From Burkholderiales bacterium (GTDB lineage: Bacteria > Pseudomonadota > Gammaproteobacteria > Burkholderiales > SHXO01): a stretch of DNA of 64,000 nucleotides. The notes below the pieces were generated by a model, which saw only the letters and a list, made by a program, of their open reading frames with translations, was not told the DNA's origin and ran no database searches. Made by a program: the position numbers and the translations under genes. Position 1 is the first letter of the stretch, and the number at the start of each line of letters is the position of its first letter. The stretch spans positions 1 to 64,000 of the forward strand of contig JADZGB010000043.1 in NCBI GenBank assembly GCA_020854105.1. The letters run 5' to 3'. Below, in pieces: positions 1 through 12,516 of this stretch.

Positions 1-943
1 TCAATGCGCCGCCGGCTGCAGTGTTCAGGGACATCGTGCCGCCCAGTTCCTGGCCGCCCGGTCCGTAGAACCTTCCGTTCATCTGTCCGTTCAGACCAAG
101 CGCATTGCTGCTGGCGGCGACGGTTCCCGAGAACGAATTCGTACCCGGGGCGTAGCTGAGGGTGGCCTGTGCGGGATTGAGGATGTCGAAGCGCACATCA
201 CCGAAAGGCGGCGGTGTGTCTCCCTGCCTGAGCAGGGCAGTACCCGATGTCGACAGGCCGATCTGGCGGGTGGCGAAATTGACATCTGCCTGGAGACTCG
301 CCCCCATGCCGAACTGGGTGCCGGCCGGCACACCGATGAAGTCGCCCGCGGCCGCGACGTAACGCCCGACCACCGAGCCGGTATAGGTCGCCGTGCCGGC
401 GACGGGCAGTGCGGCACCGGCAGTCGGTGCGCCGAACGACATGGCACTGATGGCCGAGCCGGCTCCCGAGGGAATGCTCCATGCGCCGAAGCTCTGATAG
501 CTCCATGCATTAGTGGCATGGTACGGATCGGAGATGGCGCCGATGACGGTCTGTCCGGAATTGGCCAGCGCACACAAGCCGCCGGCGCAACTCAGGCTGC
601 TGCCCGACGAGATGGTCCAGGAGGCCGAGGTGGCGGGTGTGGTGAACGTGAATCCGCGCAGGCCGCCGCTGGTGCGCGCGTTGTAGATCACGCCTGCGCG
701 GCTGGCCGCGGTATCGGTCGACACCGCGCCCCCGGAGGTGCGCGTCACTGACATGCCGTTGATGTTCACCGGGGTGCTGGCGGGCAGCGCGCCCCAGGAG
801 GTGAATGTCGTAGGCGTGACGGAGCCTCCGCCGCTGCTCCCTCCACCGCCCCCGCCGCAGGCGGCCAGCGCCAATGCCAGCGAGGCCGCGAGGATCCGGG
901 CCGAGAACATGGAAGTGCGTGAACTGCGCGCGGGATACGACAT
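1..943 (-). CDS. TbpB-like / Slam-type surface lipoprotein, partial (runs off window start)
   Basis: Reverse-strand ORF from ATG at 943 with signal peptide and lipobox (LALALAAC|GGGGGGSSGGG); C-terminal part reads GRFYGPGGQELGGTMSLNTAAGGAL, typical of TbpB-type beta-barrel repeats; no stop before window edge. Confidence 0.65.
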   Translation of the reverse strand, partial: MSYPARSSRTSMFSARILAASLALALAACGGGGGGSSGGGSVTPTTFTSWGALPASTPVNINGMSVTRTSGGAVSTDTAASRAGVIYNARTSGGLRGFTFTTPATSASWTISSGSSLSCAGGLCALANSGQTVIGAISDPYHATNAWSYQSFGAWSIPSGAGSAISAMSFGAPTAGAALPVAGTATYTGSVVGRYVAAAGDFIGVPAGTQFGMGASLQADVNFATRQIGLSTSGTALLRQGDTPPPFGDVRFDILNPAQATLSYAPGTNSFSGTVAASSNALGLNGQMNGRFYGPGGQELGGTMSLNTAAGGAL

Positions 944-1059: not shown

Positions 1060-1884
1060 GTGAGCCATGCCCCGTGCCTGCCTGCCCTGCACAGCGAACT
1101 CGACGTCCAGCGCTGGGACGGCCGAAACCTGCTCCCTGCCCGGGAAACGGTCATCGAGGAAGTGCCGGTTGCATTCGTCTATAACGGCATGGCGCACGCA
1201 GTCATGATGGCTACGCCATCGGATCTCGAGGATTTCGCGCTCGGCTTCTCGCTGAGCGAGGGCATCGTCGAGGATGCCGCAGAACTGCACGCCGTGGAGG
1301 TGGTGCCGCTGGACGAAGGCGTGCTGCTGCGCCTGGCCGTGGACGCCCGGCGCGCGCAGGCGCTGGAAGCGCGCCGCCGCGGCATTGCCGGCCGCTCCTC
1401 CTGCGGCCTGTGCGGAGTCGAGAACATCGATCAGGTGATGCGGCATCCGCGGCCGGTGGCCGGCACACTGCGCGTGCCGCACGCGCACCTGCAGGCCGCA
1501 TTCGAGGCGCTGAACGGCCTGCAGGTGCTCAATGCCAGGACCGGGGCGGTACACGCCGCGGGATGGACCGATGCGACGGGCACGGTGCGCCTGGTACGCG
1601 AGGACGTGGGACGCCACAACGCCCTCGACAAGCTGGTCGGTGCGATCGTGCGCGCCGGCCTGCAGCCGCAGGCCGGCTTCGCGCTGATCACCAGCCGCGC
1701 CAGCTTCGAGATGGTGCAGAAGGCCGCGACGGTCGGCATTCCCATTCTGGCGGCGATATCGGCGCCCACCGCGCTGGCGGTGCGCGTGGCGCGCGAGAGC
1801 GGCATGACGCTCGCGGGTTTCGCGCGCGATGGCACGCACAACGTCTACACGGGCGCGCAGCGCCTGACCGATCGAACAGGCTGA
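1060..1884 (+). CDS. fdhD: formate dehydrogenase accessory sulfurtransferase FdhD
   Basis: 274 aa, SSCGLCGVENI (CxxC) motif, RLVREDVGRHNALDKLVG and ITSRASFEMVQKAATVGIPIL motifs of FdhD. Confidence 0.93.
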   Translation: MSHAPCLPALHSELDVQRWDGRNLLPARETVIEEVPVAFVYNGMAHAVMMATPSDLEDFALGFSLSEGIVEDAAELHAVEVVPLDEGVLLRLAVDARRAQALEARRRGIAGRSSCGLCGVENIDQVMRHPRPVAGTLRVPHAHLQAAFEALNGLQVLNARTGAVHAAGWTDATGTVRLVREDVGRHNALDKLVGAIVRAGLQPQAGFALITSRASFEMVQKAATVGIPILAAISAPTALAVRVARESGMTLAGFARDGTHNVYTGAQRLTDRTG

Positions 1885-1885
1885 A

Positions 1886-3298
1886 CTAGTGCGCCGGCAG
1901 GGCCGGACGATGCCCGGCCCACGGCCGCAGCTGTTCGAAGACGCGTGCCGCGCGCAGCACCCGTGCGTCCTGGAAGCGTCCGGCGACGATCTGGATGCCG
2001 GCAGGCAGTCCATCGGCATTGAAGCCGCAGGGGCAGGTGGCCGCCGGCAACCAGGTGAGGTTGAACGGATAGCTGAAACCGGCCCAGCGCAGCCAGTCCC
2101 ATTCGTGCTGCGCCCAGTGCGCCGGAATCAGCCGGTCCGCCGGAAATGCCGCCACCGACAGCGACGGCGTGAGCAGCAGGTCGTAGCGCTGGAAGAACGC
2201 GTGCACGCGCCCGTAGTAGTCCAAGCGCTCTCCCTGCGCGCGGCAATAGTCGGCTGCGCTGTAGCGCATGCCGTGGCGGATGATGGCCACCAGTCCGGGA
2301 TCCATCCTGTCCGCCCAGCGCTCGAGCAGCGGCCCCAGCGTGCCGGCATAGGACGAGGCGAACAGGCAATGTTCCATCTCGATCGGATCGCCCCAGCCGG
2401 GATTGACCTCGTCCACGCGGCAGCCGGCATCCTCGAAGGCCAGCGCCGCGTCGCGCACCAGGGCGGCGATGTCCGGGTCCACCTGCAGGTAGCCGAGATC
2501 CGGGCTGTAGGCGATGCGCAGCCCGTCAATGCCGTGCCCGAGCCGTGCCATGAAGTCCTCGGGCGGAGCCTCCAGGCTGGTCTGGTCGCGATCGTCCGGG
2601 CCCGCCAGGGCCTGCAGCATGAGCGCACTGTCGGCCACGGTGCGCGACAGGGGCCCGACGTGCGAGATGAAGCCGTTGTTTGGCATCGGGTGATAGGGAA
2701 TGCGCCCGAACGAGGGCTTCATGCCGAACACGCCGCAGAAGGCCGCCGGCATGCGCACCGACCCGGCGCCGTCCGAGCCCTGATGAACGGGGCCGAGGCC
2801 GGCGGCGGCACACACCGCGGCGCCCGCGCTCGAGCCGCCGGCATTCATGCCGGGCTTCCAGGGATTGTGTGTGATGCCGGTGAGGGGGCAGTCGCCGTTG
2901 CCCTTCCAGCCGAACTCTGACACCGTGGTCTTGCCGATGGAGATGGCGCCGGCCGCGCGCATGCGCTCGACATGGACGTGATCGAGTTCCGGCACACGCT
3001 CGCGGAACACGTGCGAGCCGCCCATGGTGCGCACGCCGCGGGTGAAGGCCAGATCCTTGACGGTGGTGGGAATGCCGTGCAGCGGACCGAGCGGTGCACC
3101 GCCCATCACCTGCCGCTCGGCCTCGCGCGCCTGGGCCAGTGCGCTGTCGTAGGTCGGCGTGCACAGCGCATTGAGCACGGGATCGAGCGCCTGCGCCCGC
3201 TCGATGACGGCCTGCACCAGTTCCACCGGCGACAGGTCGCGCGTACGGATGGCGTGCGCGAGCGCGCTCGCCGGGGTGAAGCAGAGCTCTTGGTCCAC
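1886..3298 (-). CDS. amidase (amidase signature family)
   Basis: GIPTTVKDL...GGSSAGAAVCAAAGLGPVHQGSDGAGSVRMPAAFCGVFGMKPSFGRIP; GTG start at 3298 preceded by AGGAG. Confidence 0.9.
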   Translation of the reverse strand: MDQELCFTPASALAHAIRTRDLSPVELVQAVIERAQALDPVLNALCTPTYDSALAQAREAERQVMGGAPLGPLHGIPTTVKDLAFTRGVRTMGGSHVFRERVPELDHVHVERMRAAGAISIGKTTVSEFGWKGNGDCPLTGITHNPWKPGMNAGGSSAGAAVCAAAGLGPVHQGSDGAGSVRMPAAFCGVFGMKPSFGRIPYHPMPNNGFISHVGPLSRTVADSALMLQALAGPDDRDQTSLEAPPEDFMARLGHGIDGLRIAYSPDLGYLQVDPDIAALVRDAALAFEDAGCRVDEVNPGWGDPIEMEHCLFASSYAGTLGPLLERWADRMDPGLVAIIRHGMRYSAADYCRAQGERLDYYGRVHAFFQRYDLLLTPSLSVAAFPADRLIPAHWAQHEWDWLRWAGFSYPFNLTWLPAATCPCGFNADGLPAGIQIVAGRFQDARVLRAARVFEQLRPWAGHRPALPAH

Positions 3299-3378
3299 CA
3301 GGAATCTCCTCGTCGCGCACCCGTCCTGCGCAGTAGGGTACCCTAGCCGCACACGACCGATCGTCCCGTCTTCCCTGC

Positions 3379-4629
3379 ATGCAATTCCCCCCGACCGACG
3401 CTCCGCCCGGACTCTGGGCGCGCTGGCTGGCGACGCCGCTGTACCTTCGCATCCTGGGCGCGCTGGTGCTCGGGCTGCTGACCGGCGTGGTGCTGGGAGA
3501 ACAGGCCGGCGCGCTGGCCATGCCGGCCAAGCTGATGCTGCGCATGCTCTCGGCCCTTGCACCGCCACTCATCCTGTTCGCCATCGTGCGCGCCCTGGTG
3601 ATGGCGGAACTGCCGGCGGGAACCGCGCCGCGCCTGGCGAAGCTGCTGCTGCTCAACACCACGGTGGCGATCGCCATCGGCCTGCTCGTGGCCAATCTGC
3701 TGCAGCCGGGAACGTGGCACGAGGTCGGCCCCACGCCGCCCGCTGCGGTGGCGAGGAACGCTCCCGGCCCGCTCGAGCAGTTCGTGGACAACATCCCGCG
3801 CAGCCTGCTGGGCCCGCTCACCGACAACGGCAGCGTGGTCTCGGTCATCATCCTGGCCATCGCCTTCGGCATCGCGCTGCGTCACCTGCGCGACCGGCCG
3901 CTGCGCACCGTGCGCGACGCGATCGACGTGGGCTTCGACGCGCTGATCGTCATCCTGCGATGGGTGATCGAGATCATTCCGTTCGGCATCTTCGGCATCA
4001 TTGCCAGCATCGTCGGCACCAAGGGTTTTGCCGCCTTCATCCCGCTCGGCGGATTCGTGGTCGCGGTGGTGCTGGCCCTGCTGCTGCAAGCGGGGTGGTA
4101 TCTCGTGCGCATCCGCTTCGGCTCCTGGGTGCGGCCGGGGCAGGTGCTGCGCGGCACGCGCGATGCGCTGGTGATGGCGTTCTCCACCGCCAGTTCCACC
4201 GCCACCATGCCGGTCACCTATGCCTGCCTGCGCGACAAGGTGGGATTGCGCGAGCGCTCAGCCAGCCTGGGCGCACTGGTCGGAGCCAACTTCAACAACG
4301 ACGGCACCGCGCTGTACGAGGCGATGGCCGCGCTGTTCATCGCCCAGGTGCTGGGAATGGAGCTGAGCCTGACCCAGCAGCTGCTGGTGGTGGTGACGAG
4401 CATGGCCGCGTCGGTGGGCGCGGCCGGCATTCCCGAGGCCGGACTGGTGACGATGACCATGGTGTTCATGGCGGTGGGGCTGCCGGTGGAATACATCGCG
4501 GTGCTGTTCTCGGTGGACTGGTTCCTCGACCGCTGTCGTACCACCATCAATGTAATGGGCGACATCAACGTGAGCGCGCTGCTCGACGGCAGGCAGCGCA
4601 GGGACGAACTGCTGGAGAAGGCGGGCTGA
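3379..4629 (+). CDS. dicarboxylate/amino acid:cation symporter (DAACS family)
   Basis: 416 aa; GANFNNDGTALYEAMAALFIAQ, STASSTATMPVT motifs and multiple TM segments. Confidence 0.88.
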   Translation: MQFPPTDAPPGLWARWLATPLYLRILGALVLGLLTGVVLGEQAGALAMPAKLMLRMLSALAPPLILFAIVRALVMAELPAGTAPRLAKLLLLNTTVAIAIGLLVANLLQPGTWHEVGPTPPAAVARNAPGPLEQFVDNIPRSLLGPLTDNGSVVSVIILAIAFGIALRHLRDRPLRTVRDAIDVGFDALIVILRWVIEIIPFGIFGIIASIVGTKGFAAFIPLGGFVVAVVLALLLQAGWYLVRIRFGSWVRPGQVLRGTRDALVMAFSTASSTATMPVTYACLRDKVGLRERSASLGALVGANFNNDGTALYEAMAALFIAQVLGMELSLTQQLLVVVTSMAASVGAAGIPEAGLVTMTMVFMAVGLPVEYIAVLFSVDWFLDRCRTTINVMGDINVSALLDGRQRRDELLEKAG

Positions 4630-4632
4630 GGG

Positions 4633-6271
4633 ATGCAGACACAGGCAGCCGGTGAAACGCCGTCCGCGGCCACGCGCGTGAGCGTGCGCGAAGCGGTGTT
4701 CGCGCTGCTGCGCGACTTCGACATGACGACGATCTTCGGCAATCCCGGTTCGACGGAGCTGCGTATGTTCCGCGACTGGTATGTTCCGCGACTGGCCGGC
4801 GGACTTCCACTACGCGCCGGGCCTGCAGGAAAGCGTGGTGGTGGCGATGGCCGACGGCTTCGCACAGGCACGGCGCGCACCGGCACTGGTCAATCTGCAC
4901 TCGGCGGGCGGGGTCGGCCATGCGCCGGGCAGCGTGTTCACAGCCTGGCGCAACCAGTCGCCGCTGGTCATCGTCGCCGGTCAGCAGACGCGCGCGATGC
5001 TGCCCACCGACCCCTTCCTGTGCGCGCGCTCGGCCGTGGATTTTCCCGAGCCGTACGTCAAGTGGAGCCACGAGCCGGCACGTGCGCAGGACGTGCCGCT
5101 GGCGCTGTCGCAGGCGATCCACACCGCCCTGCAGAAGCCGTGCGGGCCGGTGTTCCTGTCCGTTCCGGAGGACGACCGGGACGCGCTCACCGAGCCGGTC
5201 GTGCCGCGCACGGTGGCGACCCGCTTCGCACCCGACCCCGTGGCGCTGGAGGCGCTCGCGTGCGCACTGGAGTCGGCACAGCGGCCGGCGCTGGTGGTCG
5301 GCGCGGCGATCGACCAGGATGGAGCGTGGGACGACCTCATCGCGCTCGCCGAGCGGCTAAATGCCGTGGTCTGGCACAGTCCGATGGCCGGACGCCGCGC
5401 GTTTCCGCAGAGCCATCGGCTGTTCGCCGGCTTTCTGCCGCCGCTGCGCCAGCCGCTCGCGCACCGGCTCGCCGGGCACGACGTGGTGCTGGTGATCGGC
5501 GCACCGGTGTTCCTGTACCACGTGCATAGCGAAGGCGAGTATGTCGCCCCGGGCACGCGCCTGTTCCATCTCACCGACGACGCCGAGCAGGCCGCGCGCG
5601 CACCGGTCGGGAGCAGCCTGTTCGCCAGCATCGGCCTGGGCGTGGCGCAGCTGCTCGCGCGCGTGCAGGCCACGCAGCGGCCGGCGCCGCAGATCGCGCC
5701 GCGCCCGGTAGTGCCCACGGGCAAGGATCCCATCAGCGGCGAGTTCGCCATGCACACGCTGCGCGAGACGTTTCCGGCGAACGCGGTGCTGGTGGAGGAA
5801 GCACCCTCGCACCGCAACGCGCTGCACGATCACTTCCGCGTGGATCGCAGCGGCGGCTTCTACGCCTGCGCCAGCGGCGGCCTGGGCTTCGCCCTGCCTG
5901 CCGCGGTGGGGGTGGCGCTGGCGCAGCGCCCGCGCAAGGTGGTGGCAGTGGTCGGGGACGGCTCCAGCCTGTATACCATCCAGGCCCTGTGGACAGCGGC
6001 GCGGCTCGCCCTTCCCATCACCTTCGTCATCCTCGACAACAGCGGCTATGGTGCGGTGAAGGCGCTCGGCGCGCGCATGGGCATCGGGACCATCCCTGGC
6101 TGCGATGTGCAGGGCGTGGATTTCGTTTCCCTCGCACGCGGTTTCGGCTGCCGTGCGTCCTGCGTTCAGCGTGCCGAAGACCTCGCCGGGGCACTGGGCG
6201 AGGCCCATGCGGCCGATGGTCCGTGGCTGGTCGAGGTGCGGATGAATCCGAATGCCGACACGATCTACTGA
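4633..6271 (+). pseudogene. mdlC: ThDP-dependent decarboxylase (benzoylformate decarboxylase-like), frameshifted by a 16-bp tandem duplication
   Basis: N-terminus VREAVFALLRDFDMTTIFGNPGSTELRMFRDW in frame of 4633; remainder MFRDWPADFHYAPGLQESVVVAMADGFAQ... GDGSSLYTIQALWTAARLALPITFVILDN in frame of 4781. Exact duplication TATGTTCCGCGACTGG at 4764-4779 and 4780-4795; removing one copy restores a continuous frame. Confidence 0.85.
4764..4795. repeat. exact 16-bp tandem duplication inside the decarboxylase gene
   Basis: TATGTTCCGCGACTGG TATGTTCCGCGACTGG read directly. Confidence 0.97.
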
Positions 6272-7718
6272 TCCGAAACGCACGCGATCGCCGCGTCTTG
6301 CCTGCGCCTGCCTCGCGCTGACCCTGGCCGCGTGTGCGAACGCGCGGGAATTCGACCTCGTCATCGCCAACGGCCGGGTGATGGACCCGGCCAGCGGACT
6401 GGACGCCGTGCGTCACGTCGGCGTGCGCGGCGGCAGGGTCCAGGCATTGAGCGCGTCGCCGCTCGACGGGCATCGGACCATCGATGCCACCGGGCTGGTG
6501 GTCGCACCCGGTTTCATCAATCTGCACTGGCACGGCACGCAGCCGCGCAGCAACACCTTCGAGGCGATGGACGGGGTGACATCGACCTTCGAACTGGAGA
6601 TCGGCGTCGCCGACGTGGACCGATGGTACGACGAGCGTGCCGGGCGCATGCCGATCAACTACGGCGCCGCGGTCGGGCACGCGCCGGTGCGCATGCGCGT
6701 GATGGACGATCCGGGCGCATTCGTGCCGGCCGGCCCCGCGGCACGCCAGCCGGCGAATGACGCGCAGCGTGGACAGATCCTGGAGGGCATCGAGCGCGGA
6801 CTGCAGCGCGGTGCGGTGGGCGTGGGCTTCGGCCTGGCCTACACACCCGCCGCCTCCCGGCGCGAGATCCTCGACAGCTTCCGTGTGGCCGCACGGTACA
6901 AGGCCGCGGCCTACGTGCATATCCGCGGCGCCTCCAGCGCCGGCAGCGCCGACCGCGAGGAGGGTCTGCTGGAGGTCATCGCACACAGCGCCGTGAGCGG
7001 TGCGCCGGTGCATGTCGCCCACATCAACAGCAGCGCGCAGGAGGCCGTGGACCGGCTGATGGAGGTCATCGCGCAGGCACGCGGGAACGGCGTGGACGTG
7101 TCCACCGAGGCCTATCCCTACACGGCCGGCATGACGCGGATCGAATCCTTCCTGTTCGATACCTGGGGCGACAAGCCCGAATCCGAGTACGCCAAGCTAC
7201 AGTGGGTGGCGACCGGCGAGCGGCTCACGCGCGAGAGCTTCCATCGTTACCGCCGGCAGGGCGGCTTCGTGCTCATCCACGCCAACACCGAGGCGCGCGT
7301 GCGTCAGGCGATCGTGCATCCGCTCAGCATGATCGCGAGCGACGGCTTCGACACCGAACCGCCCAGCCATCCGCGCTCGGCCGGCACCTTCACGCGCACG
7401 CTCGCGCGCTACGTGCGCGAGGAGCAGGTGCTGACACTGATGGAGGCGCTGCGCAAGATGACGATCATGCCGGCGCAACGCCTGGAGACACGCGTGCCGG
7501 ACATGGCGCTGCGCGGCCGGCTGGCCCCCGGCGCGTTCGCCGACATCGTCGTATTCGATCCGGCGACGGTGCACGACACCGCCACCTACGAGCAACCGGC
7601 CCGTTACGCGGTTGGCATGCGTCACGTACTGGTCAACGGCCAGCCGGTGGTCCACGACGGTGCGCCGGTGCCGGATGCGCTGCCCGGGCTGCCGGTGCGC
7701 GCGCCGCTGCACCAGTAG
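6252..7718 (+). CDS. N-acyl-D-amino-acid deacylase / D-aminoacylase-like amidohydrolase with signal peptide
   Basis: DLVIANGRVMDPASGLDAVRHVGVRGGRVQAL, VVAPGFINLHWHG, C-term GRLAPGAFADIVVFDPATVHDTATYEQP; lipoprotein-like N-terminus (LALTLAACAN). Confidence 0.85.
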   Translation: MPTRSTDPKRTRSPRLACACLALTLAACANAREFDLVIANGRVMDPASGLDAVRHVGVRGGRVQALSASPLDGHRTIDATGLVVAPGFINLHWHGTQPRSNTFEAMDGVTSTFELEIGVADVDRWYDERAGRMPINYGAAVGHAPVRMRVMDDPGAFVPAGPAARQPANDAQRGQILEGIERGLQRGAVGVGFGLAYTPAASRREILDSFRVAARYKAAAYVHIRGASSAGSADREEGLLEVIAHSAVSGAPVHVAHINSSAQEAVDRLMEVIAQARGNGVDVSTEAYPYTAGMTRIESFLFDTWGDKPESEYAKLQWVATGERLTRESFHRYRRQGGFVLIHANTEARVRQAIVHPLSMIASDGFDTEPPSHPRSAGTFTRTLARYVREEQVLTLMEALRKMTIMPAQRLETRVPDMALRGRLAPGAFADIVVFDPATVHDTATYEQPARYAVGMRHVLVNGQPVVHDGAPVPDALPGLPVRAPLHQ

Positions 7719-7754: not shown

Positions 7755-7930
7755 CTGCTGGATCCCGGCCCCGGATCAAAGCATTCCGGGGCAGGCTTTC
7801 ACGCGCCGGGATGACGACACACCCGTCGCCCCGGCGAGATCCCCACACCCGTCGCCCCGGCAACCGCCGGGGTCCAGCATACAACGAAAGGTCAGTTCTA
7901 CTACGTGGATCCCGGCTTTCGCCGGGATGA
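7755..7930. repeat. REP-like palindromic elements (GGATCCCGGCTTTCGCCGGGATGACG family)
   Basis: Two or three inverted-repeat copies; related copies at 8042-8062, 56972-57006 and 61335-61430. Confidence 0.7.
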
Positions 7931-8008
7931 CGATGAGTTTGGGATGACGATGAGTTTGGGATGACGATGAGTTTGGGATGACGATGAGTATGGGATGACG
8001 ATGATGCT
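7924..8008. repeat. 17-bp tandem repeat array (GGGATGACGATGAGTTT x ~5, then a degenerate unit)
   Basis: Units at 7924-7940, 7941-7957, 7958-7974 identical; 7975-7991 and 7992-8008 diverged at the 3' end; partial sixth unit from 8009. Confidence 0.93.
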
Positions 8009-8076
8009 GGGATGACGAGGATATCGAGATGATGAAGGTCTGATCCCGGCGTTTGCCGGGCTGGCGACCGTCTTGC

Positions 8077-12516
<4,440 letters not shown>

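Follow-up and report, generated by a model that had tools for sequence, protein, structure and literature searches.

A 16-bp tandem duplication breaks the reading frame of a putative benzoylformate decarboxylase gene in an environmental betaproteobacterium

Spontaneous tandem duplications within the pneumococcal genes cap3A, cap8E and tts are reversible and lead to phase variation, according to the work of Waite et al. (2001, 2003) as it is cited in PMC4022640, and a duplication in a pneumococcal capsule gene is also described as reversible elsewhere (PMC4243769). For the benzoylformate decarboxylase (BFD) of Pseudomonas putida, the substrate and cofactor pocket is known to be lined by Asn23, Pro24, Ser26 and Glu28, of which Ser26 can be replaced with modest loss (PMC6028569). 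Here we describe a putative BFD gene whose frame is interrupted by an exact duplication of this type. It lies in a 64-kb stretch of DNA (64,000 nucleotides), the whole of which is termed the window, and the features of the locus are listed in the Table.

Table. Features of the BFD locus and its surroundings, in window coordinates.
Feature	Position	Strand	Remarks
fdhD, upstream cluster member	1060..1884	+	adjoins the symporter in the relative G001
Amidase between fdhD and symporter, opposite strand	1886..3568	-	at this place in the window, not in G001 (L055)
Intact SDF-family (sodium:dicarboxylate-type) symporter, immediately upstream of BFD	3379..4629	+	partner conserved in the same genus
ORF opened by the native start, 298 aa	4633..5529	+	family resemblance ends near residue 49; TAG 5527-5529 closes the out-of-frame remainder
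5' part of the putative BFD gene, through the first copy	4633..4778	+	holds VREAVFALLRDFDMTTIFGNPGSTELRMFRDW
Exact tandem duplication, unit GTATGTTCCGCGACTG (16 bp) x2 + G	4763..4795	+	adds 16 nt = +1 frame
3' part of the putative BFD gene, +1 frame, 496 codons	4781..6271	+	TPP_enzyme_N partial, _M, _C; NF005485 profile 30-519
Intact amidohydrolase (PRK09061 type), overlaps the BFD 3' end	6252..7718	+	partner conserved in the same genus

An exact scan and Tandem Repeats Finder agreed on a gap-free array of 33 bp at 4763-4795, with a period of 16 and 100% identity. The sequence TATGTTCCGCGACTGG occupies 4764-4779 and recurs in direct contact at 4780-4795, and, with 1 bp of extra homology, the boundaries of the unit can be shifted by one base. 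Judged by base composition, a period-16 run of at least 17 is expected ~2e-5 times in the 64-kb window, and an exact tandem duplication ~0.001 times when all periods of 14-60 are counted; exact duplications with a period of at least 14 were absent from all 20 Markov-shuffled 64-kb sequences. As 16 is not a multiple of three, a change in repeat length shifts the frame, a property sought in contingency loci. Throughout the 4.07-Mb genome the 16-mer was found at this site alone, in its two copies, with up to one mismatch allowed, and a search within two mismatches returned no single-copy version of the junction elsewhere in it. Across 384 kb of the contig, this is the only exact tandem duplication of at least 10 bp that has a length other than a multiple of three and sits well inside a gene, as judged by inspecting the extents of ORFs and coding frames. 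Because the other duplications sit at gene edges or between genes, a family of such switches is absent from the 384 kb examined.

The two halves of the gene are read in different frames. Codon-usage decoding, which was trained without homology, located the switch at 4775/4776; this decoding is noisy, since translation revealed most of the other switches it flagged as shadow frames of GC-rich DNA, and it served for the frame of this gene and not for a genome-wide frameshift rate. The two frames that resemble the family have GC3 values of 0.84 and 0.88, versus 0.49 for the read-on frame. A single-copy reading gives one protein of 540 residues. With a frame-disrupting lesion, an otherwise recognisable gene and intact relatives, the locus has the features of a simple frameshift pseudogene.

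Profile searches revealed that the downstream 496 residues alone reach 660.3 bits with NF005485 (PRK07092), the NCBIfam equivalog for benzoylformate decarboxylase, whose curated cut-off is 493 bits. They contain a partial TPP_enzyme_N domain followed by TPP_enzyme_M and TPP_enzyme_C, and match the solved benzoylformate decarboxylases (PDB 1BFD family). By alignment, the equivalents of Glu47, His70 and His281 (P. putida numbering) fall in this part, within the motifs LQE, NLHS and APVFLYH, whereas the equivalent of Ser26, in the NPGS motif, is encoded before the frameshift, in a different frame. The gene is accordingly named for the family that it matches, from which the conversion of benzoylformate to benzaldehyde is predicted. 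An uninterrupted ORF for this enzyme is missing, as the best match covers profile positions 30-519 and the frame is broken at 4763-4795. Another TPP-enzyme match of the same genome (C2:92691-94100) has a single TAG in frame within its aligned part, and is a possible pseudogene or an alignment overrun.

Comparison with relatives indicated which state came first. The one-copy protein aligns without gaps across the site to homologues from another family (G032/L031/L032; 60%) as well as to the same-genus homologue (G001/L055; 54.6% of amino acids, ~55%), where ..GNPGSTELRMFRDWPADFHYAPGLQES.. of the one-copy form is matched by ..GNPGSTEMRFFRDWPADFRYVLGLQES.. and ..GNPGSTELKMFREWPKDFRYVLGLNES.. of the relatives; the one-copy form is therefore ancestral and the duplication derived. 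The closest among the named genomes scanned are two MAGs at 60%. Of 300 genomes of the same order, 16 carry a BFD above the cut-off, and 15 of these BFDs begin at profile position 1-2; the match of the window gene alone starts at position 30, because its N-terminus sits in another frame. One internal TGA is reported in five of the 15 other matches and may be their own stop codon, since the four listed with full coverage extend to position 520 or 522 of the 523 in the profile. No comparable array or duplication was found in the BFD genes of relatives, in a between-species comparison covering the aligned relatives and the 15 other BFDs. The initial annotation had described an exact 16-bp duplication in direct contact at 4764-4795, with the second copy imposing a +1 shift on a benzoylformate-decarboxylase-like gene and one copy fitting the family. 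All of this agrees with the present analysis, in which the full array is one base longer (4763-4795), the two successive frames are those of 298 and 496 residues, the equivalog cut-off and the 1BFD family support the identity, and removal of one copy restores the gap-free alignment.

Altogether, these data very probably reflect a recent 16-bp tandem duplication in a formerly intact BFD gene, which produced a +1 frameshift loss-of-function allele, likely under relaxed selection, and not an evolved switch. We propose that replication slippage or template switching at a 1-bp microhomology generated the duplication and placed it in codon 49 of the intact gene. Hairpin-driven slippage was considered as the origin and rejected, as both strands at the site fold ordinarily (z -0.13 and 0.75). 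By the sequence, translation from 4633 leaves the family frame inside the repeat and ends at TAG 5527-5529, and the enzyme function would be lost. Because translation would now stop ~720 nt before the overlapping amidohydrolase, a polar effect on that gene is possible. With the remaining 492 codons still intact, either little time has passed since the event or further decay has simply not set in. The two-copy state is read from one genome assembly. The event is of a kind already known, a short tandem duplication that inactivates an ORF and is physically revertible, and the locus is a clear-cut natural case of a gene lost in this way, with intact relatives in the same genus and in another family.

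The genes around BFD bear on the selection acting on it. The same-genus relative G001 carries, in order, paaA, paaC, a PaaE-like reductase (named from reading its sequence), paaK (confirmed by search), fdhD, the SDF symporter, BFD and the amidohydrolase, all of which are intact. The window retains the last four of these genes, with the amidase inserted on the other strand. The amino acid identity between the window and G001 is 67.5% for the symporter, 66.4% for the amidohydrolase and 52.0% for fdhD, so BFD is less conserved than its direct neighbours and similar to fdhD. In G032, paa genes lie within ~6 kb of BFD. PaaA and PaaC gave no match in the window's genome, an absence that is not absolute, as some short contigs read N at their start; nor was a phenylacetate-CoA ligase over the cut-off found there, an enzyme encoded beside BFD in both G001 and G032. 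PaaA/PaaC occur in 12 of the 15 BFD genomes versus 37 of the 284 others (Fisher p 3e-8), a p value that is too strong because phylogeny is ignored and eight of the 15 BFD genomes belong to one genus. Since the phenylacetate genes that usually accompany BFD were not found in this genome, relaxed selection on BFD is plausible rather than proven, and the missing partner pathway may be a reason for the loss of the enzyme. Losing the paa pathway need not release BFD, because three genomes (G094, G130 and G223) keep an intact BFD without PaaA/PaaC.

Directly upstream of fdhD, a glycine-rich, lipoprotein-like ORF with the signal ..LAACGGGGGGSSGGGS.. runs off the contig start on the minus strand (943..2). 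A position of the paa genes just beyond the contig start was considered and rejected, as this ORF is, on reading its sequence, unlike paaK. The synteny of G001 does not continue at the contig start, and paa genes may possibly lie in gaps elsewhere. On the other side of the locus, a 17-bp repeat array of ~6 copies (GGGATGACGATGAGTTT), also read as period 34, occupies 7924-8032. It exceeds the BFD repeat in size and is intergenic, flanked by the amidohydrolase and by a convergent gene ending at 8077. Further exact tandem arrays on contig C43, at 158534-158590 (19 bp x3.0), 314230-314292 (14 bp x4.5) and 360087-360156 (28 bp x2.5), are apparently located at gene edges or between genes.

An assembly or sequencing artefact, in which the real genome has one copy, is improbable. 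Exact 127-nt contig overlaps are a signature of de Bruijn assembly at k=127, and an exact 16-bp insertion is not a typical short-read error. In this assembly the end of contig C33 equals the start of C17 over exactly 127 bases, overlaps of exactly this length occur in three more contig pairs, and a 127-mer is common to several contig ends. Because k is 127, single k-mers span the 33-bp repeat with ample room, and collapse or expansion by the assembler is therefore unlikely, as is a repeat artefact in general. The contig itself consists of 437 kb of otherwise coherent genes. We infer that the genome is a metagenome bin, which it resembles in its 49 contigs, the shortest seen being ~2.7 kb; strain variants could mix in such a bin, and since the short contigs point to one, the two-copy sequence may represent the majority variant. 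The junction of C33 and C17 also splits a second, more distant BFD-like gene between the end of L058 and the start of L057, where exactly 127 nt are shared; C33 and C17 are probably adjacent in the genome, and the paralogue is probably intact.

Set against the frameshift allele proposed above, a phase-variable switch of the contingency type, with the duplication repeatedly gained and lost so that the decarboxylase is OFF or ON in part of the population, is very unlikely, and the ON/OFF role suggested by the initial annotation found no support. A perfect 16/17-bp tandem repeat can indeed revert by slippage, the rest of the BFD gene is undamaged, and the intra-ORF duplications in the pneumococcal capsule genes are reversible causes of phase variation. 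Yet the array has just two copies, the gene of no relative holds a repeat array or comparable duplication, and the target is a metabolic gene, its product being a catabolic enzyme of the cytoplasm instead of a surface structure, whose usual partner pathway is missing from this genome. Moreover, the microhomology present before the event amounts to just 1 bp and the hairpins at the site are ordinary, so a single copy has no predisposition to be duplicated. Like every perfect short tandem repeat, this one could in physical terms lose a copy by slippage, which would in principle restore the enzyme; the literature gave no directly usable number for slippage rates at such repeats. Strong doubt is also due to the reading that aromatic 2-oxo-acid catabolism is reversibly switched in this environmental betaproteobacterium, ON cells with one copy living beside OFF cells with two. 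If such a mixed population were real, phase variation based on duplication would be known for a catabolic gene as well.

It is most improbable that the two-copy gene remains functional through an internal start at 4781 yielding a shortened enzyme of 496 residues. This ATG opens the downstream frame without a stop, being the first ATG, GTG or TTG in a frame that becomes available after TGA 4724, with only an ATC between, and the product would retain TPP_enzyme_M, TPP_enzyme_C and most of TPP_enzyme_N. However, it would lack residues 1-44 and hence the conserved GNPGSTE segment, which corresponds to the pocket residues of the P. putida enzyme (PMC6028569). Because Ser26 alone tolerates substitution, the argument relies on the loss of the whole segment. 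All other BFDs in the 300 genomes begin at profile position 1-2. The bases preceding ATG 4781 (CTGCGTATGTTCCGCGACTGGT) contain no Shine-Dalgarno-like motif; the nearest such sequence, GGAG at 4755-4758, is ~22 nt from 4781 and correctly spaced for ATG 4765, the ATG of the first copy, which opens the out-of-frame reading. The duplication thus displaced the productive ATG from GGAG. The initial annotation had proposed a 496-residue protein lacking ~45 N-terminal residues: the ORF exists from the first start in its frame and the missing residues number 44 by count, but a useful product is not supported, given the lost GNPGSTE segment and the absent Shine-Dalgarno sequence. An automatic annotator might call a late-start enzyme of 496 residues here; we suggest recording the locus as a frameshifted, probably inactive BFD instead. 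Programmed +1 ribosomal frameshifting was rejected, as no relative needs such a shift and the exact duplication creates it.

The frameshifted BFD gene can be placed among described systems by its product and by its lesion. Like P. putida MdlC (PDB 1BFD; NF005485), it scores above the equivalog cut-off, although the scored part lacks the N-terminus (660 vs 493 bits), and has the equivalents of Glu47, His70 and His281 in its downstream part; it differs from MdlC in the frame broken at codon 49 and in its neighbours, which are fdhD, the SDF symporter and the amidohydrolase with no visible mandelate-pathway genes. The silencing of genes by frameshift indels in Mycobacterium tuberculosis, known from its 'frameshift scars' (PMC8339072), and the silencing of antibiotic resistance by mutation in Staphylococcus aureus (PMC6819657) resemble the present case in that an indel silences a gene and a second event can reverse it. 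Those reports mostly concern small or homopolymer indels tracked across many isolates, whereas BFD carries a single 16-bp tandem duplication seen in a single genome. The closest known precedent is the pneumococcal set of cap3A, cap8E and tts (Waite et al. 2001, 2003, as cited in the later literature). There, reversion and phenotype were seen experimentally and the genes build the surface capsule, whereas the BFD case is one genome's sequence and concerns a catabolic enzyme; in both, an exact short direct duplication inactivates an ORF, and losing one copy restores the gene or, for BFD, would be expected to do so.
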